Source: Winogradskyella thalassocola
Lineage (GTDB): Bacteria; Bacteroidota; Bacteroidia; Flavobacteriales; Flavobacteriaceae
Length of the DNA: 64,000 nt
Assembly (NCBI RefSeq): GCF_900099995.1
Contig: NZ_FNCZ01000008.1
Location: forward strand, 62,001 to 126,000
Reading direction: 5' to 3'
Shown: positions 49,586-64,000 of the stretch, one piece after another
Position numbering within the stretch: the stretch's first letter is position 1
Layout: each line of letters starts with the position of its first letter
Notes under the pieces: model-generated
Told to the model about the DNA's origin: nothing
Seen by the model: the letters and a program-made list of their open reading frames with translations, nothing else
Databases searched by the model: none
Program-made: the position numbers and the translations under genes

Positions 49586-50007
49586 TTAAGATGTTAGATG
49601 TCATACAATATACATAATTTTTAATGAATAATTCACCTTTGTATATGTGTTAATCTTCATATAATGAGTAGGTTATTGATATTTTGACGAGAGCAATTAA
49701 GTTGTTCTGAGAATGAAAATAAGGACTAACATCACGTATGCATTATTATGAGTGTCTCAATGATTTCAAAAAAAAAAACCCTGAATTTTATCTTATTAAA
49801 TTTAGGTGCTTAACCATCACAAGAATCATATGTATATTCAATTGCTAGTTCTAATCTACTTGCGTATATTTCTTCTGCATATTCTATTCGGTTTTTAATT
49901 ACTAAATAAGTAGCTTTACAATGAATTTATACAGACATAAATACGTTTCTTAAGATTTGCCAGACGAATAATTTCAGCTTAAAAACACTTAATAGATTAT
50001 AATAAAA
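49586..50007. other. Gene-less stretch with a weak minus-strand coding remnant
   Basis: No intact gene is seen in these 422 bases. On the minus strand a 38-codon stop-free stretch at nt 49813-49926 reads IHCKATYLVIKNRIEYAEEI then YASRLELAIEYTYDSCDG before a TAA at 49810. It looks like the tail of a small secreted or lipoprotein gene whose start is lost, but this is weak. The rest holds A-rich runs only (nt about 49768-49781). Confidence 0.25.
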
Positions 50008-50526
50008 ATGACATTCATAAACCCTCAAATACAGATAGAAGACTTACCAAATGTTGAAGATGCAGTATTAAAACCAATTTCAAAATCATACTTAAAAATC
50101 ATAGCACTAAATGGACTGGTAGTGTATAGTCTAATTTTAGGCACTTTGTTTGGGGTGAGGCACTTAATTAAAGAAGACGGTTTTCAGGATAATTTTTGGT
50201 ACGTGTTTTTTGGAGTTTTAGGACTCTGTATTATCAATTTTATCATTTCCATATTAGCTTTCAAAAAACGAAAGTATGCGGTTCGTGGTCATGACGTTAT
50301 TTACGCAAAAGGGTTAATTGTACATTCTATAACCACAGTGCCTATTTCTAGAATTCAACATGTTGAAGAATCCCGAAGCTGGTTAGCAAGACAATTCGGC
50401 TTATCAACACTAAAAATTTTTACTGCGGGTGAATCTGGTAGTGACTTAAGTATAAAAGGACTTCATCATCTTGAAGCAAAAGGTATTAATGATTTTATAA
50501 GCTCAGAGGTTAATGGAAACGACTGA
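50008..50526 (+). CDS. Membrane protein with bacterial PH domain (YdbS-like)
   Basis: A 172-residue protein with two transmembrane helices (about residues 33-50 and 66-86) and a bacterial PH (bPH2/DUF304) domain at about 92-165. The domain has KYAVRGHDVIYAKGLIVHSITTVPISRIQHVEESRSWLARQFGLSTLKIFTAGESG. This is the small partner of the YdbS/YdbT pair. Function is not settled, with links to membrane physiology. It overlaps the next gene by 14 bases. Confidence 0.85.
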   Translation: MTFINPQIQIEDLPNVEDAVLKPISKSYLKIIALNGLVVYSLILGTLFGVRHLIKEDGFQDNFWYVFFGVLGLCIINFIISILAFKKRKYAVRGHDVIYAKGLIVHSITTVPISRIQHVEESRSWLARQFGLSTLKIFTAGESGSDLSIKGLHHLEAKGINDFISSEVNGND

Positions 50527-52018
50527 TTTCTCACAACCCATAAGGCAATCCGCTAAAGGCATTATTGTAATTTTCGCATTCAATCTTGTTACGTTTGTTA
50601 AAAAGTTTTTTGTGCTTTTTATAGCTTTTGGTGTTTCAATACTTCGAAGCAAATCTATTGGCAATGTTACTCCAACAATGATGGTATTGGCAGTAATAGG
50701 AGTTTTATTAATTATTCTGATTATCGCTATTTTAAAATATCTCAATTTTAAGTTTTATCTCAGTAAGGATGATTTTCATTTAGCTACAGGAATCATAAAT
50801 AAGGATAATACAATTATCCCCAAATCAAAAATTCAGAACGTCTATATCAAACAAAATTTTCTGCAACAAATTATAAATGTGGTTTCCGTTAAAATTGAAA
50901 CTGCAGGTGATAAAAAATCTGAAATTGAAATCAGTGCTTTAGATAAACCAACGGCATTATTATTAAAGAAGAAACTGTTCAGAAAAGCAAGCAGTGTAAG
51001 TGAAGAGCTAGAACAATCAGAATCTATTGAAGAACCAGAAGTATTCTTTAAGGTGACTCCAAAACGATTGCTATTAGAGGGGTTATCTCAAAATCATTTT
51101 AAGAGTTTTTTATTGATATTTACGTTTGGTTTTGGACTGTATAGTGAATTCAAAGACTTTTTACAAGAATTAGAGTTAGAGAAACATGTTGAAGGCTTAG
51201 TAGAATTAGACGAAGCCACTATACTCAATCTAATAATCACTAATGTAATTATCCTAATAGGAGTCGTGTTGATTTCATTTTTATTTTCAGTTGTGAAAAC
51301 ATTTATAATCAACTTTAATCTCGAAGTCGTTGAGCATCAAAAAACAATAGAAATTAATAAAGGTCTTTTTAATAAAGTGTCTTTAAGTTTAACGCCAAGT
51401 CGTATTCAGAATTTAGTGATTACCACAAATCGTGTTAAACAGTATTTTGGATTACATACCATAGCTGTAAAGCAAGCTATGGTGAATGTAAAGCAGCAAA
51501 AAAACTTCAACATTGTGGCGTTAGAGAAGGAGCAGCTAGATTATCTAGTCAATAAGCTCTTGTCTAATTATAATGACGAACAAGGAGATGTTGCTAAGCC
51601 AAGACCTTATTTTATGCGAATTTCAGCTTTAGAAATGTTTCTTTTTGGAGTTGTTATAAATGGTTTATCATTAGCTATTTTTGGCATAGAGATGTTATGG
51701 ATTAATGCTGTTTTTATGCCTTTGGCAGCGTTGTATGTTTACTTTGCTTATAAAAAAGCCTATTACAGAATTTCTGAAGACTTTGTAACCATAGGAAGTG
51801 GTGTCATTGATACCACAACGAATATCCTCGAAATTCATAAAATTCAAAGCGTAAAGCTAAAACAGACTATTTTTCAAAGACCACGAGCTATTGCTTCATT
51901 GGTAATTTCAACAGCATCAAAATCTGTAACGATTCCTTATATCTCAAAATCAGAAGCTATATCAATTTATAATCTCTTGTTATATAAGGTAGAATCTCAA
52001 GATAGAGATTGGATGTAA
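50513..52018 (+). CDS. Membrane protein with three bacterial PH domains (YdbT-like)
   Basis: A 501-residue protein with pairs of helices near residues 18-40 and 55-75, 195-215 and 240-265, and 380-420. They separate three bPH2 modules beginning FYLSKDDFHLATGIINKDNTIIPKSKIQNVYIKQNFLQ, NLEVVEHQKTIEINKGLFNKVSLSLTPSRIQNLVITTNRVKQYFG and YRISEDFVTIGSGVIDTTTNILEIHKIQSVKLKQTIFQ. It is the large partner of the YdbS-like gene with which it overlaps. Its own end overlaps the alternative 5' extension of the next gene. Confidence 0.85.
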   Translation: METTDFSQPIRQSAKGIIVIFAFNLVTFVKKFFVLFIAFGVSILRSKSIGNVTPTMMVLAVIGVLLIILIIAILKYLNFKFYLSKDDFHLATGIINKDNTIIPKSKIQNVYIKQNFLQQIINVVSVKIETAGDKKSEIEISALDKPTALLLKKKLFRKASSVSEELEQSESIEEPEVFFKVTPKRLLLEGLSQNHFKSFLLIFTFGFGLYSEFKDFLQELELEKHVEGLVELDEATILNLIITNVIILIGVVLISFLFSVVKTFIINFNLEVVEHQKTIEINKGLFNKVSLSLTPSRIQNLVITTNRVKQYFGLHTIAVKQAMVNVKQQKNFNIVALEKEQLDYLVNKLLSNYNDEQGDVAKPRPYFMRISALEMFLFGVVINGLSLAIFGIEMLWINAVFMPLAALYVYFAYKKAYYRISEDFVTIGSGVIDTTTNILEIHKIQSVKLKQTIFQRPRAIASLVISTASKSVTIPYISKSEAISIYNLLLYKVESQDRDWM

Positions 52019-52053
52019 AACCGTATTTTTACAACCAGAAAAATGATTATTAT

Positions 52054-52539
52054 ATGCTAGTCGATTTTAATACCTTACCAGAAGAATCTAGAGTTTGGAT
52101 TTATCAATCCAATCGTTCATTTTCAGATGAAGAGTTAGAACAACTTAAAACACAATTAGATACGTTTATAGAAGCTTGGACGGCCCACGGAAAAGATCTA
52201 AAAGCAGGTTATAAAATGGTTTACAAACGCTTTATAGTGATTGCAATGGATCAAAGTTTGAATAGTGCAACAGGTTGCTCTATAGACTCTTCTGTTACTT
52301 TTATTCAACAATTAGAGAAACAATATGATGTTGACTTAATGGATAAAATGAATGTGTCTTATAAGCAAGGTGAATTTATTGCGTACAAATCATTAATTGA
52401 TTTTAAAAAAATGGCACAGCAAAAAGCAGTGTCTAAAAATACCGTTGTTTTTAATAATCTAGTGACCAATATTGCAGAATTCAATGAAAATTGGGAAGTG
52501 CCTGCAAGTGAAAGTTGGCATAATCGTTTTATTAAATAA
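52054..52539 (+). CDS. Conserved flavobacterial protein (often mislabelled ABC transporter ATPase)
   Basis: A 161-residue cytoplasmic protein starting at MLVDFNTLPEESRVWIYQSNRSF. It has SDEELEQLKTQLDTFIEAWTAHGKDLKAGYKMVYKRFIVIAMDQSLNSATGCSIDSSVTFIQQLEKQYDVDLMDK. Public annotations frequently call this family an ABC transporter ATPase, yet no Walker A or signature motif exists here, so that name is unsupported. Upstream in-frame ATG 52009 overlaps the YdbT-like gene, but the family begins at MLVDF. The role is unknown; it follows the PH-domain pair and may share its message. Confidence 0.8.
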   Translation: MLVDFNTLPEESRVWIYQSNRSFSDEELEQLKTQLDTFIEAWTAHGKDLKAGYKMVYKRFIVIAMDQSLNSATGCSIDSSVTFIQQLEKQYDVDLMDKMNVSYKQGEFIAYKSLIDFKKMAQQKAVSKNTVVFNNLVTNIAEFNENWEVPASESWHNRFIK

Positions 52540-52581
52540 TACTTCACATTACTAACTTTTATATTTCTAATACATTAGTCA

Positions 52582-52600
52582 CTTTTACGATTCGTAAAAG
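52582..52600. promoter_or_regulatory. 19-bp palindrome upstream of serB
   Basis: CTTTTACGATTCGTAAAAG is a perfect inverted repeat (9 bases each side of a single T). It ends 24 bases before the serB start, with no T-run after it, so it looks like an operator rather than a terminator. A near copy lies at 59001. Confidence 0.45.
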
Positions 52601-52624
52601 CTGATTAACAATAAACTTAATAAA

Positions 52625-53848
52625 GTGGCTACAGACATTTTCTTATTAAATATTTCAGGACAAGATAGACCGGGTTTAACTTCTAGCTTAACAAGTGTTT
52701 TAGCAGAATATGATGCTAAAGTTTTAGATATCGGACAAGCTAATATTCATGATACGCTATCGTTGGGGATTATGTTCGAAATTAAAAAGGGTAAAAAATC
52801 TTCAGCAGTTCTTAAAGATTTATTGTTTAAAGCTTATGAACTTGGAATTAAAGCCAAATTCACACCCATTTCGCTTGAAGATTATGAGAACTGGGTAAAC
52901 CAACAAGGTAAAGATCGCTACATCATTACTATTTTAGGAGAAAAATTAGCAGCAGAGCAAATATCTGAAGTTACTAAAATCATTTCAGAAAAGAACTTAA
53001 ACATCGATTCTATTAAGCGATTAACGGGGCGAGTATCATTAGTAAAAAAGGAAGAATATCCAAGAGCGTCTATTCAATTGTCAATTAGAGGTAAAATAGG
53101 AGATAAGTCTGATTTCACTAGAAAATTTATGGAGATCTCGCGAGAGTTAGATGCCGATATTGCGTTTCAAGAAGATAATATTTTTAGACGTAACAGACGT
53201 TTGGTTTGTTTTGATATGGATTCAACTTTAATTCAAACCGAAGTTATAGATGAACTTGCAGAACTAGCAGGAGTAGGTGCTCAAGTAAAAGCCATTACCG
53301 AATCTGCTATGCAAGGAGAAATAGATTTCAACGAAAGTTTTAAACAACGCATGAAGCTTTTAGAAGGCTTGAGTGAATCCGTTTTACAAGAAGTGGCAGA
53401 ACGATTGCCAATTACCAAAGGAGCCAAACGCTTAATAGATACATTACATTATTACGGATTTAAGACAGCTATTCTTTCTGGTGGATTTACGTATTTCGGA
53501 CATTATCTTCAGAAAAAATTAGATATCGATTATGTCTTTGCTAATCAACTTGAGATTAAAGATGGTGCTTTAACAGGTGGTTATCTTGGTGATATTGTCG
53601 ATGGTAATAAAAAAGCTGAATATCTTCAACAATTAGCGGACGAAATGGGAATTGATATCAGTCAAACCATTGCTGTTGGCGATGGTGCTAATGATTTACA
53701 AATGCTTAATCTTGCTGGTTTAGGTATTGCGTTTCATGCAAAGCCTAAAGTAAAAGACAATGCGCAAAGTTCAATTTCTAGCATAGGGTTAGATGGCGTG
53801 CTGTATTTATTGGGGTATCATGATCGTCAGATTGATTTGTTATCTTAA
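52625..53848 (+). CDS. serB: Phosphoserine phosphatase with tandem ACT domains
   Basis: SerB dephosphorylates phosphoserine in the last step of serine synthesis. The 407 residues contain two ACT domains (about residues 5-80, DIFLLNISGQDRPGLTSSLTSVL, and 96-180, YIITILGEKLAAEQISEVTKIISEKN) that may sense serine. A HAD phosphatase domain follows, with motif I CFDMDSTLIQTEVIDELAELAG, motif II ILSGGFTYF and motif III to IV AVGDGANDLQMLNLAGLGIAFHAKPK. The start is a GTG at 52625; no ATG exists in frame near it. A perfect palindrome lies 24 bases upstream of the start. Confidence 0.95.
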   Translation: MATDIFLLNISGQDRPGLTSSLTSVLAEYDAKVLDIGQANIHDTLSLGIMFEIKKGKKSSAVLKDLLFKAYELGIKAKFTPISLEDYENWVNQQGKDRYIITILGEKLAAEQISEVTKIISEKNLNIDSIKRLTGRVSLVKKEEYPRASIQLSIRGKIGDKSDFTRKFMEISRELDADIAFQEDNIFRRNRRLVCFDMDSTLIQTEVIDELAELAGVGAQVKAITESAMQGEIDFNESFKQRMKLLEGLSESVLQEVAERLPITKGAKRLIDTLHYYGFKTAILSGGFTYFGHYLQKKLDIDYVFANQLEIKDGALTGGYLGDIVDGNKKAEYLQQLADEMGIDISQTIAVGDGANDLQMLNLAGLGIAFHAKPKVKDNAQSSISSIGLDGVLYLLGYHDRQIDLLS

Positions 53849-53983
53849 ACTGAATAATAAAATGTCTATTCCCTAGGTTATAAAAGTATCTTAAAGTCTT
53901 TTTACTTCCTCTTAAATATGCTAATTTGGCACAATATTCGTTATGATTTATGTGTTCAACCTATAAACGATAAAAGATTGCTA

Positions 53984-56941
53984 ATGCGTTACCTTGCCCT
54001 TATTCTTATATGTACTTGTTTTCAATTTAGTTTTGGGCAAGACCTTTTCAATAATCCACTCCAATCTAAAGATCCTATTCAACAACAGAAATGGGTAGAT
54101 AGTTTATATACGTCTATGTCTATTGAAGAAAAAATAGGACAACTTTTTATGGTGCAAGTGTTTTCAGATAAAGGAAAAGCACATGAAGTTGGCATCGCTA
54201 ACTTGATAAATAATCAACATATTGGTGGATTAATTTATTCTAACGGAGGACCAGTGCGCCAAGCAAAATTAAATAACGAATTCCAAGCCGCGTCTAAAAT
54301 TCCATTGCTAATAGGAATGGATGCAGAATGGGGTTTAAGCATGCGTTTAGATTCTACCTATGCGTTTCCATGGAATATGACACTTGGTGCGATTACGGAT
54401 AATAAATTGGTAGAACAAGCTGGTAGACAAATAGGAGAACATTGTAAACGTTTAGGGGTGCATTTTAATTTTGCACCAGCAGTAGATATTAATACCAATC
54501 CTAAAAATCCAATCATAGGTAACCGTTCTTTTGGTGAGGATAGAGATAATGTTACGGAAAAAGGTTTAGCATTTATGAAAGGCATGCAAAGTGCTGGGAC
54601 ATTAGCCAATGCAAAACACTTTCCAGGTCATGGAGATACAGAAGAGGATTCGCATTTAAAATTACCAACCATTAATTTTAGTGCAAAACGTATCGATTCT
54701 ATTGAGTTATATCCATACAGAAAGCTTATTAAACAGGGTTTAGCTAGTGTCATGGTTGCGCATTTAAATGTACCGAGTTTAGAGTCGCGTCGCGATTTTC
54801 CATCGTCGTTATCAAAACATATCGTTACAGATATTTTAAAAGATAGTTTAGGGTTTAAGGGCTTGATTTTTACCGATGCCCTAACAATGAAAGGTGCTGC
54901 AGATTATGTTGAAAAAGGTATAGATGGTATAAGAACTAAGAGTTTAGTAAAAGGAGGCGAAATTGATTTAATGGCATTTTTAGCAGGAAATGATGTGATG
55001 CTGATGTCTGAAGATCCGGAAAAAGGAATTGCTAAATTTGTTGAAGCATTTAATAATGGGACTATAAGTGAAGAACGATTAGCACATTCAGTTAAGAAAA
55101 TATTGATGGCTAAATATAAGGTTGGTTTAAATAATTATTCTCCAATCGGAATTTACAATTTAGTTGATGATCTAAATAGGTTAAAAGACGATTTACTCTA
55201 TGAGGAACTCATGGAAAACGCCATTACGGTAGTTAAAAATACTAATGAATTATTACCACTTCGAGATTTAGAAACTAAGAAAATTGCATACGTATCATTA
55301 GGTGATGATGACGGTTCTGTGTTTTTAGATGAGTTAAAAAAATACACTAAAGTCCACGAGATTAAAGCAGATAAGCTTGATGAAATAATTACAAAACTTC
55401 AGAATTATAATACGGTTGTTGTAGGCTATCACAAATCGAATGCTAATCCATGGAAAAGCTTTGAATTTTCGCAAAAGGAAATGGCTTGGTTGTATGAAAT
55501 AGCAAGAACAAATACAATTGTTTTGGATGTTTTTGCGAGACCTTATGCATTAAACGATTTACTGTCTGTTGAAAATATTGAAGGTATTGTAATGAGTTAC
55601 CAAAACAGCAAAATAGCTCAAGAAAAATCAGCGCAGCTTATTTTTGGAGCCATTGCAGCAAAAGGTAAATTACCAGTTAGTGCAGGGCAATTTTTTCCTG
55701 TTGGAACGGGTGAAAGTTTTAATTCATTATTAAGTTTAAGTTATGGTTTGCCAGAACGTGTTGGTATGGACTCTCAACTTTTAAGTCGAATAGACTCTGT
55801 GGCTAACCGAGCTGTTGACGGAAAAATGACACCGGGAATTCAGCTCGTAGTTGCCAGAAGAGGTAAAGTAATTTACAATAAGAATTTTGGGTATCAAACC
55901 TATGAGAAAAAGGAAAAGATAGGTTTTGATAATGTTTACGATGTTGCCTCATTGACAAAAATATTAGCGACACTACCCGTATTAATGGAGTTAGAAGAGC
56001 AAGGCTCATTATCTTTAGATGATAAATTAAGCAAATTAATACCTGAATATAAAAACACCAATAAGAAAAACGTGACGCTTAAAAAAATGCTGTCTCACTA
56101 TGCACAACTCAAGCCGTGGATTCCGTTTTATTATGCCACTTTAGATTCTGTAACAAAAAAACCAAATGCTAAATATTACCGAAATTCGCGTATTGAAGGC
56201 TTCACTGTGGAAGTCACTAATACACTCTTTATGCGTGATGATTACAAGGATTCTATTCAAAAAGTGATACGTGACAGTGATTTATTATCAAGTTTAAGAT
56301 ATCGATATAGCGATTTACCATATTATATTCTTAAAGATTATCTCGAAGATTTTTATGATAAACCATTAAGCGAAATAGCAGAAGATCGTTTTTATAAATC
56401 TTTAGGTGCCAATTATACGACGTATAACCCACGTGATAAATTCAGCTTAAAAAAAATTGTCCCAACAGAAATCGACGATTATTATCGCTACAAAGAAGTA
56501 CATGGGTATGTACATGATATGGGTGCAGCTATGCAAGGTGGAGTTGGCGGACATGCAGGTGTTTTTAGTAACGCTAATGATGTTGCTAAAATAATGCAGA
56601 TGTATCTTCAAAAAGGGTTTTATGGTGGTAAGCGCTATCTTAAAAGTGAAACTATAGATAAGTTTAATTACTGTTACTACTGCGCCAACAATAACAGGCG
56701 CGGAATAGGATTTGATAAACCTCAGTTAGGCGAAGAAGGTCCAACTTGTGGGTGTTTATCTATGACCAGTTTTGGACACTCAGGTTTTACAGGTACGTAC
56801 GCTTGGGCTGATCCCGAAGAAGAAATTGTATATGTGTTTTTAGCGAATAGAACGTACCCACAAGCTGGAAAAAATCTATTATTAAGAGAAAATATTAGAA
56901 CTGATATTCAGCGTTTAATTTATGAGGCGATTATAGATTAA
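53984..56941 (+). CDS. GH3 beta-N-acetylglucosaminidase fused to a beta-lactamase-like domain
   Basis: A 985-residue exported two-enzyme protein (signal residues 1-19, FSFGQ). Residues about 30-380 are a GH3 domain with the NagZ-type loop KHFPGHGDTEEDSH (His215 region) and the nucleophile Asp in IFTDALTMKG (about residue 298). Residues about 395-575 form a GH3 C-terminal-like sandwich. Residues about 595-985 are a serine beta-lactamase/PBP-like hydrolase with the SxxK motif SLTK (Ser656, Lys659), a Tyr motif YSD (RYRYSDLPYY) and the HSGFTG third motif. The set would act on cell-wall sugar and peptide parts. The ATG at 53984 is chosen because it directly begins the signal peptide; an earlier ATG at 53918 would add 22 residues. 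Confidence 0.92.
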   Translation: MRYLALILICTCFQFSFGQDLFNNPLQSKDPIQQQKWVDSLYTSMSIEEKIGQLFMVQVFSDKGKAHEVGIANLINNQHIGGLIYSNGGPVRQAKLNNEFQAASKIPLLIGMDAEWGLSMRLDSTYAFPWNMTLGAITDNKLVEQAGRQIGEHCKRLGVHFNFAPAVDINTNPKNPIIGNRSFGEDRDNVTEKGLAFMKGMQSAGTLANAKHFPGHGDTEEDSHLKLPTINFSAKRIDSIELYPYRKLIKQGLASVMVAHLNVPSLESRRDFPSSLSKHIVTDILKDSLGFKGLIFTDALTMKGAADYVEKGIDGIRTKSLVKGGEIDLMAFLAGNDVMLMSEDPEKGIAKFVEAFNNGTISEERLAHSVKKILMAKYKVGLNNYSPIGIYNLVDDLNRLKDDLLYEELMENAITVVKNTNELLPLRDLETKKIAYVSLGDDDGSVFLDELKKYTKVHEIKADKLDEIITKLQNYNTVVVGYHKSNANPWKSFEFSQKEMAWLYEIARTNTIVLDVFARPYALNDLLSVENIEGIVMSYQNSKIAQEKSAQLIFGAIAAKGKLPVSAGQFFPVGTGESFNSLLSLSYGLPERVGMDSQLLSRIDSVANRAVDGKMTPGIQLVVARRGKVIYNKNFGYQTYEKKEKIGFDNVYDVASLTKILATLPVLMELEEQGSLSLDDKLSKLIPEYKNTNKKNVTLKKMLSHYAQLKPWIPFYYATLDSVTKKPNAKYYRNSRIEGFTVEVTNTLFMRDDYKDSIQKVIRDSDLLSSLRYRYSDLPYYILKDYLEDFYDKPLSEIAEDRFYKSLGANYTTYNPRDKFSLKKIVPTEIDDYYRYKEVHGYVHDMGAAMQGGVGGHAGVFSNANDVAKIMQMYLQKGFYGGKRYLKSETIDKFNYCYYCANNNRRGIGFDKPQLGEEGPTCGCLSMTSFGHSGFTGTYAWADPEEEIVYVFLANRTYPQAGKNLLLRENIRTDIQRLIYEAIID

Positions 56942-57016
56942 GTTTGAAAGTTGAAAAATTATTAAAGTTGTAAGTTTTCAAATTTATTTAGACTATTAAT
57001 TAAATTAAAATGTCTG

Positions 57017-57040
57017 GTTGAGTGCTGTAGAAACCTATTT
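57017..57040. repeat. Dispersed intergenic repeat, copy 2
   Basis: A second copy of the 24-base sequence at 46162, with 20 of 24 positions shared (GTTGAG...GAAACCTATTT). It lies between the GH3 fusion gene and bshA. Confidence 0.5.
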
Positions 57041-57100
57041 CAATAGAAATACAAAACTTTTCAACTAAGTACAAATAGACATCATAGATATATTATAAAT

Positions 57101-58240
57101 ATGAAAATTGGAATAGTTTGTTACCCAACATTTGGAGGAAGTGGAGTTGTAGCTACTGAATTAGGTTTAGAACTTTCAAAACGTGGTCACGAGATTCATT
57201 TTATCACCTATAGTCAACCTGTACGTTTAGAATTGTTGAGTAATAATGTGCATTTTCATGAAGTCCATGTTCCGGAATACCCATTGTTTCTTTATCAACC
57301 TTATGAGCTGGCGTTATCGAGTAAATTAGTAGATATGGTAAAATTGCATGGTATAGAGTTATTACATGTGCATTATGCCATTCCTCACGCTTACGCCGCG
57401 TATATGGCGCAACAAATGTTAAAAGATGAAGGCATTTTTGTTCCTATCGTAACTACGTTGCACGGTACTGATATTACCTTAGTTGGTAGTCATCCATTTT
57501 ATAAACCAGCTGTAACGTTTAGTATTAATAAATCTAACGCCGTAACATCTGTTTCTGAAAGTTTGAAGAAAGATACCATGCGATTGTTTGACATAAAACG
57601 AGAGATTCACGTGGTGCCTAATTTTATAGATTTAGAAAAGCATACACATAGTTTTACGGATTGCCAACGCGCCATGATGGCAGAAGATGATGAACGGATT
57701 ATAACACATATTAGTAATTTTAGAGAAGTAAAACGAATCCCGGATGTGATTAAGATTTTCTATAATATTCAAAAGGAATTACCAGCAAAGTTAATGATGG
57801 TTGGTGAAGGTCCGGAAAAAGAAGCTGCAGAGAATTTAGTTGAAGAGTTAGGGATAAGTGATCGTGTTATTTTTGTAGGAAACAGTAATGAAATCGATCG
57901 TATTTTGTGTTTCAGCGATTTATTTTTGTTACCATCGCAAACCGAAAGTTTTGGTTTAGTTGCACTCGAAGCTATGGCAAGTAGCGTACCGGTAATTTCT
58001 ACGAATACAGGTGGGTTGCCAGAGGTTAACGAAGATGGTTTTTCAGGTTATTTGAGTGAAGTTAGTGCGATTAATGATATGTCTAAAAATGCTATTAAAA
58101 TATTATCAGATATCGATACCTTAAATCAGTTTAAAGCCAATGCAAAAGTACAATCTCAGAAATTTGACTTGCACAATATTGTACCGATGTACGAGAAAAT
58201 ATATGAAGACACCTTGAAAGAATTTTTAGTGGTGAACTAA
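57101..58240 (+). CDS. bshA: N-acetyl-alpha-D-glucosaminyl L-malate synthase
   Basis: BshA joins GlcNAc from UDP-GlcNAc to L-malate in the first step of bacillithiol synthesis. The GT4 protein has 379 residues and the BshA-specific start MKIGIVCYPTFGGSGVVATELG, HVHYAIPHAYAAYMA and VTTLHGTDITLVGSHPFYKP. It also has the HVVPNFIDLEKH hinge and the donor-binding QTESFGLVALEAMASSVPVISTNTGGLPE. Bacteroidota use bacillithiol, so the call fits. bshB and bshC are not in the window. A strong terminator follows. Confidence 0.93.
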   Translation: MKIGIVCYPTFGGSGVVATELGLELSKRGHEIHFITYSQPVRLELLSNNVHFHEVHVPEYPLFLYQPYELALSSKLVDMVKLHGIELLHVHYAIPHAYAAYMAQQMLKDEGIFVPIVTTLHGTDITLVGSHPFYKPAVTFSINKSNAVTSVSESLKKDTMRLFDIKREIHVVPNFIDLEKHTHSFTDCQRAMMAEDDERIITHISNFREVKRIPDVIKIFYNIQKELPAKLMMVGEGPEKEAAENLVEELGISDRVIFVGNSNEIDRILCFSDLFLLPSQTESFGLVALEAMASSVPVISTNTGGLPEVNEDGFSGYLSEVSAINDMSKNAIKILSDIDTLNQFKANAKVQSQKFDLHNIVPMYEKIYEDTLKEFLVVN

Positions 58241-58264
58241 ACGGCATTGATTTACTTATAAAAT

Positions 58265-58299
58265 AAAAAAAAGTCTTCCTATTGGGAAGACTTTTTTTG
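58265..58299. terminator. Bidirectional terminator between bshA and the 58322 gene
   Basis: AAAAAGTCTTCC (ending 58279) pairs with GGAAGACTTTTTT (from 58285) around TATTG, with A and T runs for both strands. Confidence 0.9.
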
Positions 58300-58321
58300 T
58301 TTATGCTTAGCATCTTTTGTT

Positions 58322-58843
58322 TTACCACATTTCACTAACCTCTTGTTTTATATATGCAAGAGCCGCATTACTTGGTGCTGGTTTATCCATAAGTTCAGTT
58401 AAAACAACCTCTCTAAGTTTGTCAGCTGTATCTGTTGATTCTTGCATGGCAGCTTTTCTAATCAATTGAATGGTCGCATTTTTTGCAGCTAATGTAATAG
58501 ACCAACATTGATCGCTTACATAAATCTGTTGCGATAAGTTATGCTCTAATTCTTGTTCTATAGTTGCAATAAGTAAGCTTTCATAATCTGTTTTATTAGA
58601 AGACGTAGGGTGAATTCTCGTTAAAAGCTTAGAAGGCGCCACGCGCTCTAAGAAAAGTGATATACGTTCGTAAGCTTGCAAGCGTAATGGAAAGCTTTCT
58701 TTTTGCAAATCCTTCTGCAATAAAAATTGTCTTCTTCTATTTTCATTTTCTACATGTTGCTTAAAAAAATAGTAAGCCACTGCACCAACGATAACAGCAG
58801 GAGCAATGCTGAAAAGTAACTCGATAATTTTGTCAATATCCAT
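58322..58843 (-). CDS. Conserved membrane-anchored protein (DUF7935-like)
   Basis: A 173-residue protein with one N-terminal hydrophobic helix (about residues 9-27, LFSIAPAVIVGAVAYYFF), then a basic stretch HVENENRRRQFLLQKDLQKESFPLRLQAYERISLFLERV. The soluble helical part continues with TRIHPTSSNKTDYESLLIATIEQELEHNLSQQIYVSD. The pattern matches a family common in Flavobacteriia and known, from memory, as DUF7935. Its function is unknown. It shares the terminator with bshA. Confidence 0.75.
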   Translation of the reverse strand: MDIDKIIELLFSIAPAVIVGAVAYYFFKQHVENENRRRQFLLQKDLQKESFPLRLQAYERISLFLERVAPSKLLTRIHPTSSNKTDYESLLIATIEQELEHNLSQQIYVSDQCWSITLAAKNATIQLIRKAAMQESTDTADKLREVVLTELMDKPAPSNAALAYIKQEVSEMW

Positions 58844-59180
58844 AGTGTAAATTTAGAATACAAACTTAAAACCTTTAAGTCTATTGCACAAACAAAACCG
58901 ATAATTGAATGAAGTCTGTCTTTCATTCCATGAAGTCGCTTTTAAGGCATATGGTAACGTGCATTTTATAGTGTACGGCTTATTTTGCATAAGCTATTGA
59001 CTTTTACGTCGTGAAAAGTATCGAATCGTTTTCGATTGCTTACACGAAATAATCTTTTTTTAAAATAATTCTAAAAAAGAAAGAATTAGAGGGTAACAAT
59101 TTTAATAGTTATTTGATATAACCTCGAACGTCAGTTTTCAATGAGTTAACTGAATTATAAAAAACTAAAATATAATAATT
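58844..59180. other. Gene-less 337-base stretch before the lipoprotein trio
   Basis: No coding region is seen. It contains a palindromic CTTTTACGTCGTGAAAAG at 59001-59018, close to the serB-upstream palindrome, and a GGGTAACAA at 59091-59099. A short GAATGAA/TTCATTC stem lies near 58900. The leader of the next gene and its promoter should lie here. Confidence 0.5.
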
Positions 59181-59621
59181 ATGAAATCAATTTTAAAAAC
59201 AATTTTATTACTAGCCATTACACTTACATTATTTAACTGTGATAATGACGATGGCAATGCACCAAACATAAGTGTTTGTAATTATGAAGGACTTACGGCA
59301 GATATACAAGGCACCATAACTTTAATACCAGAATCGGACTTAATTACAGATTATTTTCCAAACAATGATGGGCCAGGTATTCCTGCAGTTGAGGTATATC
59401 ACTCGGTCAGTCCAGGAAGTACATTTGTAGTAACAAGAGCACTTACGGTGGGGGCTGTAGATTCAAGTCCACAAATAGTAATCAATGGTACAACGCATTC
59501 AGGTGTGGTAACTTGCCAAAGAGCGGGAAGTGCTGTAGGAGATGAGCTTCGATTAGACATTGTACTAGCCTCAGGTGAAGAGGTAGAATTATGTGTTGTA
59601 ATTGATTATGTAGCCCCTTAA
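59181..59621 (+). CDS. Lipoprotein, first of three tandem genes
   Basis: A 146-residue lipoprotein (MKSILKTILLLAITLTLFNC, lipobox ending Cys20) with an acidic spacer DNDDGNAP. The beta-rich remainder has a Cys-containing start (SVCNYEGL), a FVVTRALTVGAV strand and two Cys late in the chain (VVTCQRAG, LCVVIDYVAP). No family recognised. It begins a set of three lipoprotein genes with spacing of 10 and 9 bases and similar leader peptides (MKS-K/N-T-L-L-type), clearly one message. Confidence 0.65.
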   Translation: MKSILKTILLLAITLTLFNCDNDDGNAPNISVCNYEGLTADIQGTITLIPESDLITDYFPNNDGPGIPAVEVYHSVSPGSTFVVTRALTVGAVDSSPQIVINGTTHSGVVTCQRAGSAVGDELRLDIVLASGEEVELCVVIDYVAP

Positions 59622-59631
59622 AAAGCAAATT

Positions 59632-60297
59632 ATGAAATCATTAATAAACACCGTATTGATGTCGATTATAGTACTGACTTTTTTTAATTGTGATAATAAC
59701 GACGATGCGACGTCAGCAGCTTCAACAGATGGATTTACAATAAATTCAACGTTTCACGAAACTGTAAATGCATACGTCACTATAGATCAATTAGACAGCA
59801 ATGCAGATGGTAATCCTGATCATTACAACTTTATGTTTACTGATGGAAGAATTACAGATTCTTTTGGAGATGTAGGTCTCGGTTATGCTTATGCCTATTC
59901 GGTTAATACCACTTCAAAATTGGCTTTAATAAAAGTATCTGTAGATGATAATCCAAGTTTAGGTTCGGGTTTAATTTCGACAGGTAATACGTATATCGGC
60001 TCTAGTTTAAGTACTGGTGTACCTAATTACTCAGCAGATTCTTTAATCGCTCATGATGGAGTGGTTCCCTATTCTTTCGGAACAGAAAATGGAATCGATT
60101 ATGGTCACCTTCCAGAAACAAGTGGAGTTTGGTATACTGTAGGAACTATAGGGCCGACGGTGATCATAAATGCAATAAACATTGATACAAATGTGCCAGC
60201 AAATAGCACAATTGATGTAGACTATACGTTTTTAGCTTCAGATGGCACCTCTATTACAGGGCATTACGAAGGCACTTTAGGAATAATATTAGATTAA
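59632..60297 (+). CDS. Lipoprotein, second of three tandem genes
   Basis: A 221-residue lipoprotein whose leader (MKSLINTVLMSIIVLTFFNC) is close to those of its neighbours, then a D/N-rich spacer DNNDDATSAAS. The body is a beta-rich domain with DGFTINSTFHETVNAYVTIDQLDSNADGNPDHYNFMFTDGRI, a calcium-binding-like DSNADGNPD loop, and an ending VDYTFLASDGTSITGHYEGTLGI. The last motif (DGTxIxGxYxGxL) is shared with other small secreted flavobacterial proteins. Function unknown. Confidence 0.65.
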   Translation: MKSLINTVLMSIIVLTFFNCDNNDDATSAASTDGFTINSTFHETVNAYVTIDQLDSNADGNPDHYNFMFTDGRITDSFGDVGLGYAYAYSVNTTSKLALIKVSVDDNPSLGSGLISTGNTYIGSSLSTGVPNYSADSLIAHDGVVPYSFGTENGIDYGHLPETSGVWYTVGTIGPTVIINAINIDTNVPANSTIDVDYTFLASDGTSITGHYEGTLGIILD

Positions 60298-60306
60298 AAC
60301 AATACT

Positions 60307-60852
60307 ATGAAATCATTTTTTAAATCGATGCTTTTAATGGCATTAGTACTCTTGAGTTTTAGCTGCAGTAGTGACGACGATACAATAACACCAACCTTAA
60401 ATACGAGTGAGTATTTTAAATATTCAATAAATAATGGTCCTGACCGTATTTTTGATGCTTACGCTAGAGGACGGTATGAGCCAAATCCCAATTCTACGTT
60501 TGAGAAATTTTATTTTAGAGCAGGTGCGGCAACGGCAGATGGTCCGACTGTTATAGTTGATGCAGATTTTACGTTTCAAGATTTCACGTCATTCACTAAT
60601 ACTACTAATATTAATTGGGGAGTATCGGATGGTCTAACAGCTAATTTTTATTTCACAGAATTAACTCCTGGTCATACGTTTTTGTCTAGCTGGACGGTCA
60701 TGCCAAGTAATCCTGTTGTGTGCACAATTACCGTGCACCCAGTGAATGTAGGAGACTATATAGAATTTACTTTTCAAGGTGATTATGTACTTGCGACAGA
60801 TAACTCTGTTCAAGGATCAATAGTAGGAGAGGGTAGAGTGTTAAGAGAGTAA
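60307..60852 (+). CDS. Lipoprotein, third of three tandem genes
   Basis: A 181-residue lipoprotein (MKSFFKSMLLMALVLLSFSC, then SSDDDTITPT) with a beta-rich body: YFKYSINNGPDRIFDAYARGRYEP, FEKFYFRAG, WGVSDGLTANFYFTELTPGHTF, and a final VGDYIEFTFQGDYVLATDNSVQGSIVGEGRVLRE. The last part resembles the end of the second gene (GDY or GHYEG strand). It is followed by the truncated histidine kinase within 55 bases, so it lies near the deletion border. Confidence 0.65.
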   Translation: MKSFFKSMLLMALVLLSFSCSSDDDTITPTLNTSEYFKYSINNGPDRIFDAYARGRYEPNPNSTFEKFYFRAGAATADGPTVIVDADFTFQDFTSFTNTTNINWGVSDGLTANFYFTELTPGHTFLSSWTVMPSNPVVCTITVHPVNVGDYIEFTFQGDYVLATDNSVQGSIVGEGRVLRE

Positions 60853-60906
60853 GTGACTTAAATTAATACACTACTATAAAACATGACTCTTATCGGCCTT
60901 TTTTAG

Positions 60907-61194
60907 TCTCGCTATGTAAGCATATTTAATAAAGAAGATAATGGAGAAGTTATTGTTAATTTTAAAAAAGGACAAAATCAGACCTTAATAGTAGAAATTA
61001 TAGATGATGGAGTGGGATTTGTTAATACCAATAAAAGTCAAAATGGAAAGATAAAGTCGTCTAATGTACTAAAAGATAGACTTCACTTTTTAAACAATTC
61101 TAAAAAATGGAATATCTCTTATGCCGAAGAAGAAGTATTTCCAGATCATTTCGAAAAAGGAAATAAGTCAACTTTTATAATTCAAAAACTATGA
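60907..61194 (+). pseudogene. 3' stump of a LytS-type sensor histidine kinase
   Basis: The frame is open from 60907 (a TAG precedes it) and has no start codon near its beginning, yet from nt 60922 it reads IFNKEDNGEVIVNFKKGQNQ and then TLIVEIIDDGVGF. It goes on to NVLKDRLHFLNNSKK and ends in FEKGNKSTFIIQKL. That is the second half of a HATPase_c ATP-binding domain, with the G1-like DDGVGF box but without the upstream N box (ENAxxHG), the histidine region and the membrane sensor. Its stop overlaps the ATG of the LytTR regulator (ATGA), as in intact LytS/LytTR operons. So a large 5' deletion removed about three quarters of the kinase gene. Confidence 0.82.
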
Positions 61195-61934
61195 TAGATC
61201 AGATAACAGCAGTAATAGTTGATGATGAAATTACTAATATAAAAGGCTTACAGAAAAAAATCAAAAAACTGTTTCCTAGTATTCAGATTATTGGCACTTA
61301 TCAAAAACCAGAATTAGCTATTAGTGCTATAAAAGAGCAGCAACCACAACTCGTGTTTCTAGATATACAAATGCCTAGAATTAATGGTTTTGAGCTATTA
61401 GAGGCTTTAGAGTTGATAAAATTTCAGATGATATTCGTAACGGCTTTTAGCGAATATGCCATAAAAGCATTTAAACAGAATGCCATGGATTATATTTTAA
61501 AACCAATAGATGATTCCGATTTAAAGAGCGCAGTTCATAAAGCTTTAGAAGCGATTGAATCACAAAATTCTGTAGAGCAAAACACAAAGCTTTTGCAATT
61601 GATTTCAACCATGGTAACTGATAATAATAAGCTCATTGTACCAACTGCCAAAGGTTTATCCTTTATTCCACAAGATGAGGTTCTACATATTGAAGGTTAC
61701 GAAGGTTACACCAAAATCCACTTAGAAGATAGTACCACATTACTAAGTTCTTATAACTTAGGTAAATTTGCTAAAATGGTATCCTCTGATTTTTTTAAAT
61801 GTCATAAGTCGCACATTGTTAGCCTCAATAAAGTGAGACATTTTGAAAACGAAGGCTATCTCGTTTTAGAAAATAAAGAACGTGTTCCGATTTCTAGAGC
61901 TCATAAAAAAGCGTTTCTAGAGCTATTCAATTAA
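61191..61934 (+). CDS. LytTR-family response regulator
   Basis: A 247-residue regulator with a receiver domain (about residues 5-120, VDDEITNIKGLQKKI with the phospho-acceptor Asp in VFLDIQMPRINGFELL, Thr in FVTAFSEYAIKAF and Lys in DYILKPIDDSDL). The LytTR DNA-binding domain spans about residues 140-245 (KGLSFIPQDEVLHIEGYEGYTKIHLED, FFKCHKSHIVSLNKV). The partner histidine kinase directly upstream is broken, so this looks like an orphan regulator that may be inactive, driven by another kinase, or phosphorylation-independent. The tandem lipoproteins and the 62089 gene are possible targets by position. Confidence 0.93.
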   Translation: MIDQITAVIVDDEITNIKGLQKKIKKLFPSIQIIGTYQKPELAISAIKEQQPQLVFLDIQMPRINGFELLEALELIKFQMIFVTAFSEYAIKAFKQNAMDYILKPIDDSDLKSAVHKALEAIESQNSVEQNTKLLQLISTMVTDNNKLIVPTAKGLSFIPQDEVLHIEGYEGYTKIHLEDSTTLLSSYNLGKFAKMVSSDFFKCHKSHIVSLNKVRHFENEGYLVLENKERVPISRAHKKAFLELFN

Positions 61935-62088
61935 AGCTGTACTTCAAAATATGACTAAAACAGAATGCAATCTCAATGCGTTGATTAGGAAGTTTCAATA
62001 ATAAAATTTAAAAAATCGGGTAACAAATATAAGCTTGTTTTTATATAAGGGTGATAATACATTAAAAACACTTTTTAAATAAAACAAT

Positions 62089-63840
62089 ATGAAAACAAGA
62101 CAAGCAATTTCAAAAATTTCACTAGCATTAGTTCTAGTGTTTAGCGTTCTATTTACATCCTGTGAAAAAGAGGAAGGTATAGACATTCCTTCAGGTAATG
62201 GTAATAATGAAATAGGTGCTATAGACCAAGGTATAAATATTCAAAGAGATTTTATGGGCAAAATAGTAGATGAATCGTCTATGCCTTTAAGTAATGTAAG
62301 TATTGCAATTGGAAACAAAGTAGCGTCAACTGATGCTAATGGTGTTTTTATGATTAGCAATGCACAAGTCAAAGAAAGACAGGCCTATGTAATCGCAGAA
62401 AAAGCAGGTTTTATTACAGGCTTAAAAACGGTAGTACCTACAGAAGGTATCAGCAACGTGCAAATTATGCTTGTTGCTAAAAATTTAACAGGTTCTGTGT
62501 CTTCAGGAGCAAATAGTGAAGTGTCTTTAACTAATGGCGCTAAAGTAAAGTTCGATGGTGCTTTTAAAGATGAAGATGGAAACGCTTATGCTGGTAATGT
62601 TGATGTGTATATGTATCATCTAGATCCTGCACATGCTAATGTATACGATGTAATGCCAGGAAATTTACAAGCCATAAATAGTAATGATGATGAACAATTA
62701 CTAGAAACGTACGGTATGCTAAACGTGGAGTTAAAAGGAGAGTCTGGACAAACATTAAATATTGCCGATGGTCATGTCGCAGAAATACACATGCCATTAG
62801 ATCCTGCGCAAAGTGGAATCGCACCTTCAACAATTCCATTATGGCATTTTGATGAGGTCAATGGTTATTGGGTAGAAGATGGTGAAGCCGATTTAATTGG
62901 AGGTGTATATATTGGAGACGTTTCTCATTTTTCTTGGTGGAATTGTGATGCGCAATTTCCAACGGTATCATTCTGTTTAAATGTTGTAGATGATACAAAC
63001 ACACCAATTTCTAATGTAAAAGTTACATTAGGAAGAGCTGGAGAGGTTTATCCTAGACAAGGTTTCTCTAATGTAAATGGTGAAATATGTGGATTAATTC
63101 CTGCAAACGAAACCATAACGCTAACAGCTTATGATCAGTGTGGAGCAGTCGTGTTTTCAACAATCATAGGCCCATTTTCAACGGATACTAACTATGGCGA
63201 CATTGTGCTTTCAGGTGCTGTAACCGAAGTAATATCAGGTAACTTAGTAAACTGTAGTAATGCTAATGTTACGGATGGTTATGTGAATTTAAATTACGGA
63301 AATCAAGAAGCATTTGTTGAAGTTACTAATGGAGCTTTTGCAATGAATATTATTAAATGTACTTCCATAAATACGTTTTCTTTAGAAGGAATAGATTACG
63401 ATGCATTGCAATCAACAACCGTTTTGCCTTTTAATTTAAGCACACCTAATGTTGGTAGTATCATGGCTTGTAGTGCGGTTACGGAGTTTATTTCCGTGCA
63501 AGTAGATAGTGATCCTGCAGAATATCTTTTAATAGATCTCTATGCGTATCAAGAAGGACCAGTAAACGGTATGTTTGTAGTGTCTAGTCAATCCGAAGAT
63601 GGTTCAATTGGAGTAGGTGGTGATACAACCACATCAGGTACCTATACAACTCCAGACTTTTGGGTACAATCGTCTATGTTAGATATGGATTATAATGCAC
63701 CAGATACGCTGCAATTTACTATATCAAATTTTGGACCAATAGGAGGTTATGTCGATATGACTATAACTGGGACCTATACCGATACGAGTGGTGTCGTAAA
63801 AAACTTAGCAATCACTATTCATGTTCTAAGAGATAGTTAA
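62089..63840 (+). CDS. Large lipoprotein with carboxypeptidase-regulatory-like domains
   Basis: A 583-residue lipoprotein (MKTRQAISKISLALVLVFSV... LFTSC, lipobox Cys about 25) with an acidic spacer EKEEGIDIPSG. A CarboxypepD_reg-like domain spans residues about 52-120 (RDFMGKIVDESSMPLSNVSIAIGNKVASTDANGVFMISN). A middle region follows with KFDGAFKDEDGNAYAGNVDVYMYHLDPAHANVYDVMPGNLQ, ETYGMLNVELKGESGQTLNI, APSTIPLWHFDEVNGYWVEDG and VSHFSWWNCD. A second regulatory-like domain begins near residue 300 (FCLNVVDDTNTPISNVKVTLGRAGEVYPRQGFSNVNGEICG). The middle region recalls the CILP/FAM171-type extracellular fold by its ETYGML, IPLWHFDE.NG.W and GDVSHFSWWN features; this is a resemblance only. A terminator follows it. 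Confidence 0.72.
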   Translation: MKTRQAISKISLALVLVFSVLFTSCEKEEGIDIPSGNGNNEIGAIDQGINIQRDFMGKIVDESSMPLSNVSIAIGNKVASTDANGVFMISNAQVKERQAYVIAEKAGFITGLKTVVPTEGISNVQIMLVAKNLTGSVSSGANSEVSLTNGAKVKFDGAFKDEDGNAYAGNVDVYMYHLDPAHANVYDVMPGNLQAINSNDDEQLLETYGMLNVELKGESGQTLNIADGHVAEIHMPLDPAQSGIAPSTIPLWHFDEVNGYWVEDGEADLIGGVYIGDVSHFSWWNCDAQFPTVSFCLNVVDDTNTPISNVKVTLGRAGEVYPRQGFSNVNGEICGLIPANETITLTAYDQCGAVVFSTIIGPFSTDTNYGDIVLSGAVTEVISGNLVNCSNANVTDGYVNLNYGNQEAFVEVTNGAFAMNIIKCTSINTFSLEGIDYDALQSTTVLPFNLSTPNVGSIMACSAVTEFISVQVDSDPAEYLLIDLYAYQEGPVNGMFVVSSQSEDGSIGVGGDTTTSGTYTTPDFWVQSSMLDMDYNAPDTLQFTISNFGPIGGYVDMTITGTYTDTSGVVKNLAITIHVLRDS

Positions 63841-63866
63841 TAGAAAAAGAAGAATAATACCTAAAG

Positions 63867-63897
63867 AGCCATTTCATATTTTGAAATGGCTTTTTTT
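63867..63897 (+). terminator. Terminator after the large lipoprotein gene
   Basis: AGCCATTTCA (63867-63876) pairs with TGAAATGGCT (63882-63891) around TATTT with a T7 run to 63897. Confidence 0.9.
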
Positions 63898-63979
63898 GAG
63901 TTAACATAAAATGGGTATTGGTTAATACTTTTAAAAGCGTTTTGGTAAATTCATCCATAATATTTCAGGATAAGATAAA

Positions 63980-64000
63980 ATGACAAAACCAAAATATAAA
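63980..64000 (+). CDS. Possible start of a further gene at window edge
   Basis: An ATG at 63980 is followed by six sense codons (TKPKYK) to the last base. It lies 83 bases after a terminator, which fits a new gene start, but seven codons cannot prove coding. Confidence 0.25.

Follow-up and report, generated by a model that had tools for sequence, protein, structure and literature searches.

A LytTR two-component locus apparently decayed by deletion beside lipoprotein genes of a predicted ECF sigma factor regulon in Winogradskyella thalassocola

In the 64,000-nucleotide stretch of the Winogradskyella thalassocola genome analysed here (assembly GCF_900099995.1, contig NZ_FNCZ01000008.1, positions 62,001 to 126,000 of the forward strand; hereafter the window), a LytTR response regulator gene follows the stump of a sensor histidine kinase gene, which is preceded by three short lipoprotein genes (the trio, lipoproteins 1, 2 and 3) (Table 1). 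We read this arrangement as a two-component locus decayed by deletion, standing beside lipoprotein genes of another regulon, and assign this reading a probability of roughly 0.78. Comparison of the window with related loci shows that about 6.3 kb has been lost here, comprising three neighbouring genes and all of the kinase but its tail (up to residue 864). The trio and the large lipoprotein gene downstream of the regulator (hereafter 62089) are probably genes of an extracytoplasmic function (ECF) sigma factor regulon, a conclusion that rests on co-occurrence and position.

Results and Discussion

Only the tail of the kinase remains

The open frame at 60907-61194 on the forward strand comprises 95 codons, and from 60922 it corresponds to residues 864-953 of the 953-amino-acid (aa) kinase of W. 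psychrotolerans RS-3, with 100% identity. Pfam analysis of the W. psychrotolerans kinase identified Reg_prop, Y_Y_Y and His_kinase (PF06580, residues 751-830, E 4.1e-21) domains, all of which are missing from the stump, where Pfam returned no kinase domain and no His_kinase match at E values up to 1. The relatives' kinase reads ...PIIENAINHG/IFNKEDNGE at the break (slash), and we take the stump to begin directly after what is presumably the N box. Hence, where a LytS-type kinase combines a phospho-histidine domain with the N and G boxes of the ATPase, the stump holds only the part beyond the N box. These observations agree with an earlier note on this DNA, which had proposed that only the kinase tail is left, with neither histidine nor sensor part, and that the regulator overlaps the end of the kinase by ATGA; the shared kinase stop and regulator start lie at 61191-61194. 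Because its sole in-frame ATG, GTG or TTG is the GTG at 61012, the stump is unlikely to be a gene. The changes unique to W. thalassocola within it number 0 nonsynonymous and 3 synonymous, and since it has hardly drifted, the deletion looks young. The loss of the kinase is ordinary gene decay, caught early.

Relatives keep the full kinase

The regulator was found in 11 of 68 Winogradskyella genomes, W. thalassocola included (E 1e-60), and we compared the ten other loci, which include those of W. psychrotolerans, W. pacifica, W. costae, W. ludwigii, W. wichelsiae, W. undariae and uncultured Winogradskyella; a 5.6-kb Chitinophagaceae contig (L061, kinase 27% identical) was left out of the locus count. 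Nine of the ten relatives have a kinase frame that is open and stop-free over residues 1-953 and 49-100% identical to the query, itself one of these nine full-length kinases. In the tenth, a 7.1-kb contig (G046), the kinase covers residues 204-953 and runs to the contig end. The synteny that the earlier note had proposed as a check therefore shows the kinase retained, and the stump alone, which it had considered as a possible stable small protein of relatives, occurs in none of the ten.

The relatives share a gene order of DUF7935, a variable lipoprotein set, a Reg_prop/Y_Y_Y/LytS-type kinase, the LytTR regulator and, mostly, a large lipoprotein. DUF7935 adjoins the locus in nine of the ten (83-98% identical), the other being the 7.1-kb contig, which lacks it, and a 62089 homologue follows the regulator in seven. 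In W. psychrotolerans and W. pacifica, three genes separate lipoprotein 3 from the kinase. They encode an LVIVD beta-propeller lipoprotein of 346 aa, a lipoprotein of 198 aa (in W. pacifica only 183 aa when read from ATG) and a leucine-rich repeat (LRR) protein with a type IX secretion tail, the domains being those found in W. psychrotolerans; the gene set at this position differs in other relatives.

A scar suggests deletion in at least two steps

Lipoprotein 3's stop codon and the heptamer GCATATT are separated by 68 bp in the window and by 6,364 bp in W. psychrotolerans, a net loss of 6,296 bp. The alignment between the two ends at 60868 and resumes from 60920. Within the intervening scar, 60879-60921 aligns to the first codons of the LRR genes of three relatives' loci (L023, L024 and L027) with one extra base and several mismatches, and this LRR-leader reading contains two in-frame stops. 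GCATATT is common to the LRR leader and the kinase and marks the right-hand junction; two 7-mers are common to the stretches compared, and it is the heptamer's position at the join, not its length, that is remarkable. Because the LRR leader is more decayed than the stump, the sequence suggests deletion in at least two steps. The first would have brought lipoprotein 3 beside the LRR gene, whose leader then decayed, and the last would have joined that leader to the kinase at GCATATT.

An assembly artefact could in principle create such a join in a genome that really has the full kinase, and the assembly is a draft of 29 contigs. However, the junction overlap of 7 bp is too short for the usual assembly misjoin, the scar contains a decayed LRR leader, and the kinase body occurs nowhere else in an assembly rated 100% complete. 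Specifically, a 6.6-kb query of the lost DNA recovered from the own assembly the stump and 14 short matches and no other copy, while the kinase protein matched the stump at 99% identity and 18 other places in the genome at no more than 42%. We consider an assembly fault very unlikely.

The lipoprotein trio predates the deletion

Lipoproteins 1, 2 and 3 all lie upstream of the kinase in six of the ten relatives (G027, G024, G016, G006, G020 and G067), although two of the six (G027 and G067) have a broken frame for lipoprotein 2. G062 also has a broken lipoprotein 2 frame and lacks lipoprotein 3. In G056 the whole trio is represented solely by homologues of 41-63% identity, and in G009 lipoproteins 1 and 2 have diverged counterparts, that of lipoprotein 2 being split over two frames, whereas lipoprotein 3 has no counterpart. 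Because the trio precedes a full-length kinase frame in six other genomes, the event is best described as a deletion and not an insertion, and the trio is, judged by this comparison, ancestral at the locus. We therefore rejected the trio as an invader, since it occupies the same place in these six genomes, and with it the proposal of the earlier note that the trio had replaced the kinase by insertion-deletion.

Support for the trio having arrived and displaced the kinase comes from lipoprotein 1, which shows exchange between species, such that an imported stretch could have carried the right-hand break. Lipoprotein 1 DNA (59201-59600) is only 76-86% identical to the two nearest relatives, while 58201-59200 to its left is 94-100% identical; its identity to W. 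costae, W. wichelsiae and W. undariae reaches 92-98%, against just 71-84% for the regulator region (61201-62000) of these three species. Trio genes thus seem to have been swapped between species. Such swapping does not imply that the trio caused the deletion. Over lipoprotein 3 and the 16 bp that follow it, identity to the nearest relatives stays at 93-99%, and the six genomes with the trio before a full-length kinase frame already refute this account as an origin of the trio. We regard displacement of the kinase by the trio as highly improbable. As a separate observation, four of the ten relatives (W. psychrotolerans, W. wichelsiae, W. undariae and G009) have a broken lipoprotein 2 frame, so the cassette decays often.

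The lipoprotein genes share an element with an ECF sigma factor locus

A bipartite element, GGTAACAA-N14-T(G/T)ATATAA, lies upstream of both lipoprotein 1 and 62089 and is conserved in relatives. The own 4.57-Mb genome contains four exact copies, two at the locus and two on another contig (C19:120437 and C19:120988). At up to two mismatches the element gave counts of 18 and 9, no different from those of a reversed-pattern control (17 and 10), and exact copies alone can therefore be relied on; the three one-mismatch matches in the own genome lie inside open frames and were left out. Both C19 copies adjoin a 193-aa sigma factor gene, one lying before a secreted protein, in the gap between divergent genes, and the other before a 344-aa lipoprotein. 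The C19 protein has the region 2 domain (PF04542, 29.8 bits, cut-off 24) together with the ECF family profile (NCBIfam sigma70-ECF TIGR02937, 49.6 bits, cut-off 42.9), which identifies it as an ECF sigma factor. All four exact copies match an AAC-type -35 at a fixed spacing from a -10, AAC being a motif characteristic of ECF sigma -35 elements.

The element and the sigma factor occur together across the genus. A scan of the 68 genomes found the exact element in 18, with one match in all for the reversed control, and the sigma factor in 20 (E 1e-25), at no less than 71% identity in 18 and at 63% and 40% in G030 and G003, respectively. All 18 genomes with the element have the sigma factor at 71% or above, G030 and G003 are without an exact element, and the element is present in none of the 49 genus genomes without the sigma factor. 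At kinase-regulator loci, the element was found in 10/10 genomes with the sigma factor and in 0/4 without it (0/3 if G046, whose contig shows no lipoprotein genes, is excluded). The loci with it are those of eight Winogradskyella genomes, W. thalassocola among them, where the element precedes lipoprotein 1, the 62089 homologue or both, and those of Oceanihabitans sp. 2_MG-2023 (sigma factor 81% identical) and Lacinutrix mariniflava (79%); G009, G046, G056 and Lacinutrix sp. C3R15 have neither sigma factor nor element at the regulator locus. In a family sample of 299 Flavobacteriaceae genomes from 203 genera, 43 had the element, 44 the sigma factor (E 1e-60) and 39 both (Fisher p ~1e-38). Accordingly, the element co-occurs with a sigma gene in 18/18 genomes of the genus and 39/43 of the family, as expected of an ECF sigma promoter.

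Among the loci returned by our searches, the element lies outside frames of 150 codons in 47 of 50 distinct contexts (genus and others) and in 42 of 46 (family loci), with a gene start at most 200 bp away in 47 and 40, of which 46 and 38 pass a secretion-signal rule. In total, 84/87 element genes pass this rule as against 66/116 background genes, a significant difference that we read as enrichment and not as proof, the rule being our own and permissive and the background set small and hand-picked.

The shared element could alternatively be a binding site through which the regulator still controls the trio and 62089, a response that the earlier note had suggested looking for. In relatives, too, the trio, the regulator and 62089 lie next to one another, and the element precedes both lipoprotein units. 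Nevertheless, the element is absent at four regulator loci in sigma-less genomes (one of them a short contig), and ten of the 18 element genomes of the genus contain the sigma factor and no regulator at E 1e-60. We therefore rejected the shared GGGTAACAA element as a LytTR site, given that its other two exact copies adjoin the ECF sigma gene and that the element does not follow the regulator. Control of these genes by the regulator through this element is quite unlikely, and a response of the trio and 62089 to it is disfavoured, as the element tracks the ECF sigma factor on another contig.

Under the sigma-regulon reading, RNA polymerase with the C19 ECF sigma factor would transcribe the trio and 62089 from promoters at 59092 and 62019. 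A neighbour of the sigma gene that bears tetratricopeptide repeats (TPR) might hold or release the sigma factor, a guess prompted by its position. The C19 locus itself (L092 5060-10238; own C19 at ~119-124 kb) contains the ECF sigma gene and the TPR-bearing neighbour, with a divergent 145-aa secreted protein, the 344-aa lipoprotein and a DUF7849 protein. In many other genomes, genes behind the element likewise encode proteins of about 145 aa and of 300-350 aa whose leaders are similar.

The regulator is intact and orphaned in its own locus

The regulator retains both the receiver and the LytTR DNA-binding domain of a LytTR response regulator. That it is now an orphan, as the earlier note had put it, is supported within its own locus by truncation of the kinase in this lineage. 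In the ancestor, kinase and regulator were probably downstream in the same gene run as the trio. On the forward strand we detected no terminator-like site in 60852-61191 and no TAnnTTTG box in 60500-61191 (~0.4 expected), and for this reason any transcription of the regulator is probably read-through from 59092, with the regulator as what would be the last gene of the trio operon. With the kinase gone, the regulator is probably inactive or receives weak input from small phosphate donors or a paralogous kinase, and it may be heading for loss.

In the regulator, unique changes (nonsynonymous:synonymous) stand at 5:12 here versus 1:16 in the two nearest relatives (p 0.18), and the neighbouring DUF7935 gene, used as a control, trends alike (4:5 versus 1:11, p 0.12). 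Relaxed selection on the regulator was therefore set aside, and no conclusion was drawn.

A functional orphan served by a paralogous kinase, such as those on C19, is unlikely. In its favour, C19 encodes two long kinases (28-29% identical), and the regulator gene is open with a dN/dS of 0.06-0.09 against the two nearest relatives. Against it, each of these kinases lies near a LytTR regulator of its own, one being directly upstream and the other separated by another kinase gene, and because the dN/dS covers the whole branch, most of the constraint may date from before the deletion.

Comparison with known systems

The ancestral locus presumably belongs with the LytS/LytTR-type two-component systems that have Reg_prop sensors. 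It resembles them in the Reg_prop, Y_Y_Y and His_kinase domains of the relative's kinase and in the Response_reg and LytTR domains of the regulator, and differs in that the kinase is here a pseudogene stump. A second parallel is PorY-PorX-SigP of Porphyromonas gingivalis, in which the regulator is reported to act through a sigma factor (PMC4800418). Like that system, the one described here has both a Bacteroidota two-component system and an ECF sigma factor, serving cell-surface and secretion genes; unlike it, the element and sigma factor here occur without the regulator and the regulator without them, with no link apparent between the two. A third is the SM6 motif of Flavobacterium psychrophilum, described as a promoter class ascribed to ECF sigma factors, with a CGT-type -10 and targets that include secretion-system genes (PMC9723704). 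Both are flavobacterial promoter classes ascribed to ECF sigma factors, although many genes behind our element are lipoproteins, and its second half has no fixed CGT among aligned copies and thus departs from the SM6 -10. Among the matches listed for our search terms, we found no description of the element or the locus in the open-licence literature.

This departure from SM6 weighs against our interpretation, as do several other points besides the assembly fault considered above. The promoter reading depends on co-occurrence and position, and the genomes are related, so that their counts are not independent and the Fisher p values overstate. In the family, the element occurs without the sigma factor in four genomes (G164, G275, G312 and G335), which may be chance given that the reversed pattern matched in 9/299, and the sigma factor occurs without the element in five (G204, G261, G303, G322 and G355), at 53-59% identity. 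Some element matches fall inside the sigma gene's coding sequence (G028, G133, G176, G189, G258 and G346), although each of these six genomes has another match elsewhere, leaving the genome counts unchanged. Such lipoprotein genes are also found at loci in genomes without the sigma factor, making another driver possible, and the regulator could bind sites other than the element. The regulator's excess of amino-acid changes is not significant, so its decay is unsupported, and a terminator-like site on the forward strand at 60045-60066, inside lipoprotein 2, counts against read-through.

A broader proposal is that surface-lipoprotein cassettes form a shuffling pool in Flavobacteriaceae under the control of a widespread ECF sigma factor, which has a bipartite promoter of its own, and that in W. 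thalassocola the kinase deletion brought the orphan regulator into this regulon as the fourth gene of a sigma-driven operon; we hold this tentatively, as a possibility with the odds against it. The predicted ECF sigma regulon with a readable promoter, both parts of which occur in 39/299 Flavobacteriaceae, is a more useful outcome than the kinase loss. Among the loci covered, its predicted targets mostly carry secretion or lipoprotein signals, which offers a testable handle on such genes. The locus also illustrates that a two-component system does not necessarily control the lipoprotein genes next to it.

Table 1. Features of the locus, in window coordinates.
Feature	Position	Strand	Evidence
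DUF7935 gene, left syntenic border	58322..58843	-	PF25589 E 1.8e-60
Element GGTAACAA-N14-TGATATAA before the trio, a putative ECF sigma promoter	59092..59121	+	exact match
Lipoprotein 1, 146 aa, an ancestral gene whose allele resembles those of W. wichelsiae, W. costae and W. undariae more than those of the nearest relatives	59181..59621	+	
Lipoprotein 2, 221 aa	59632..60297	+	
Lipoprotein 3, 181 aa	60307..60852	+	
Deletion scar; decayed LRR leader (in the nearest relatives the LRR gene lies before the kinase)	60869..60921	+	alignment
GCATATT, 7 bp common to LRR leader and kinase, right-hand junction	60920..60926	+	sequence comparison
Kinase stump, pseudogene	60922..61194	+	last 90 residues and stop
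LytTR response regulator, intact, orphaned in its own locus	61191..61934	+	Response_reg PF00072 E 1.6e-20; LytTR PF04397 E 9.9e-17
Element, second copy, upstream of 62089	62019..62048	+	exact match
583-aa lipoprotein (62089), downstream neighbour	62089..63840	+	PF13620 carboxypeptidase-regulatory-like E 1.1e-4, below cut-off

The trio proteins and other features nearby

The earlier note's remark that the trio leaders look alike holds: all three have lipoprotein leaders, BLAST finds that of lipoprotein 1 at the other two, and Cys20 is invariant in all three alignments. From the lipid cysteine, the trio reads CDNDD, CDNNDD and CSSDDD, and 62089 reads CEKEE. The Bacteroidetes lipoprotein export signal is given as K-(D/E)2 or Q-A-(D/E)2 near the lipid cysteine (PMC5080379). 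In that strict form it is present in 62089 only, as K-(D/E)2; the trio resembles it in the acidic stretch after the cysteine and lacks the strict motif. By analogy, these acidic residues suggest surface export of the trio.

AlphaFold models of two trio proteins are mostly beta, with a mean predicted local distance difference test (pLDDT) score of 79.6 for lipoprotein 1 and 67.4 for lipoprotein 2; Foldseek returned no match for these two models at E 0.001 or better. Family searches yielded no named family for the trio, and no convincing match emerged when PDB sequences were searched with profiles of the three alignments (best E 0.12). The immunity protein BSAP-5i was rejected as a relative, its match being limited to the first 25-26 residues, that is, to the leader, and far below the cut-off.

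An intergenic repeat of about 85 bp was seen in L023 (complement of about 13820-13905), of which nine copies and one partial copy were found in the own genome at 71-80% identity. In five copies examined (L046-L050) it lies 56-90 bp before the start codons of unrelated genes, among which we assume an NAD kinase, galE, exonuclease III and an efflux adaptor from their resemblance. Its 5' part is often a short open reading frame beginning MKRAC. Rfam gave no gathering-level match on L023 and L046-L050, the repeat included, and on window 50000-64000 it gave two matches, both below cut-off, at 58164-58302. The copy of the repeat that stands before the relatives' 346-aa lipoprotein is absent at the window locus. 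Farther to the left, window positions 57101-58240 encode BshA, the N-acetyl-alpha-D-glucosaminyl L-malate synthase of bacillithiol synthesis (E 4e-167).

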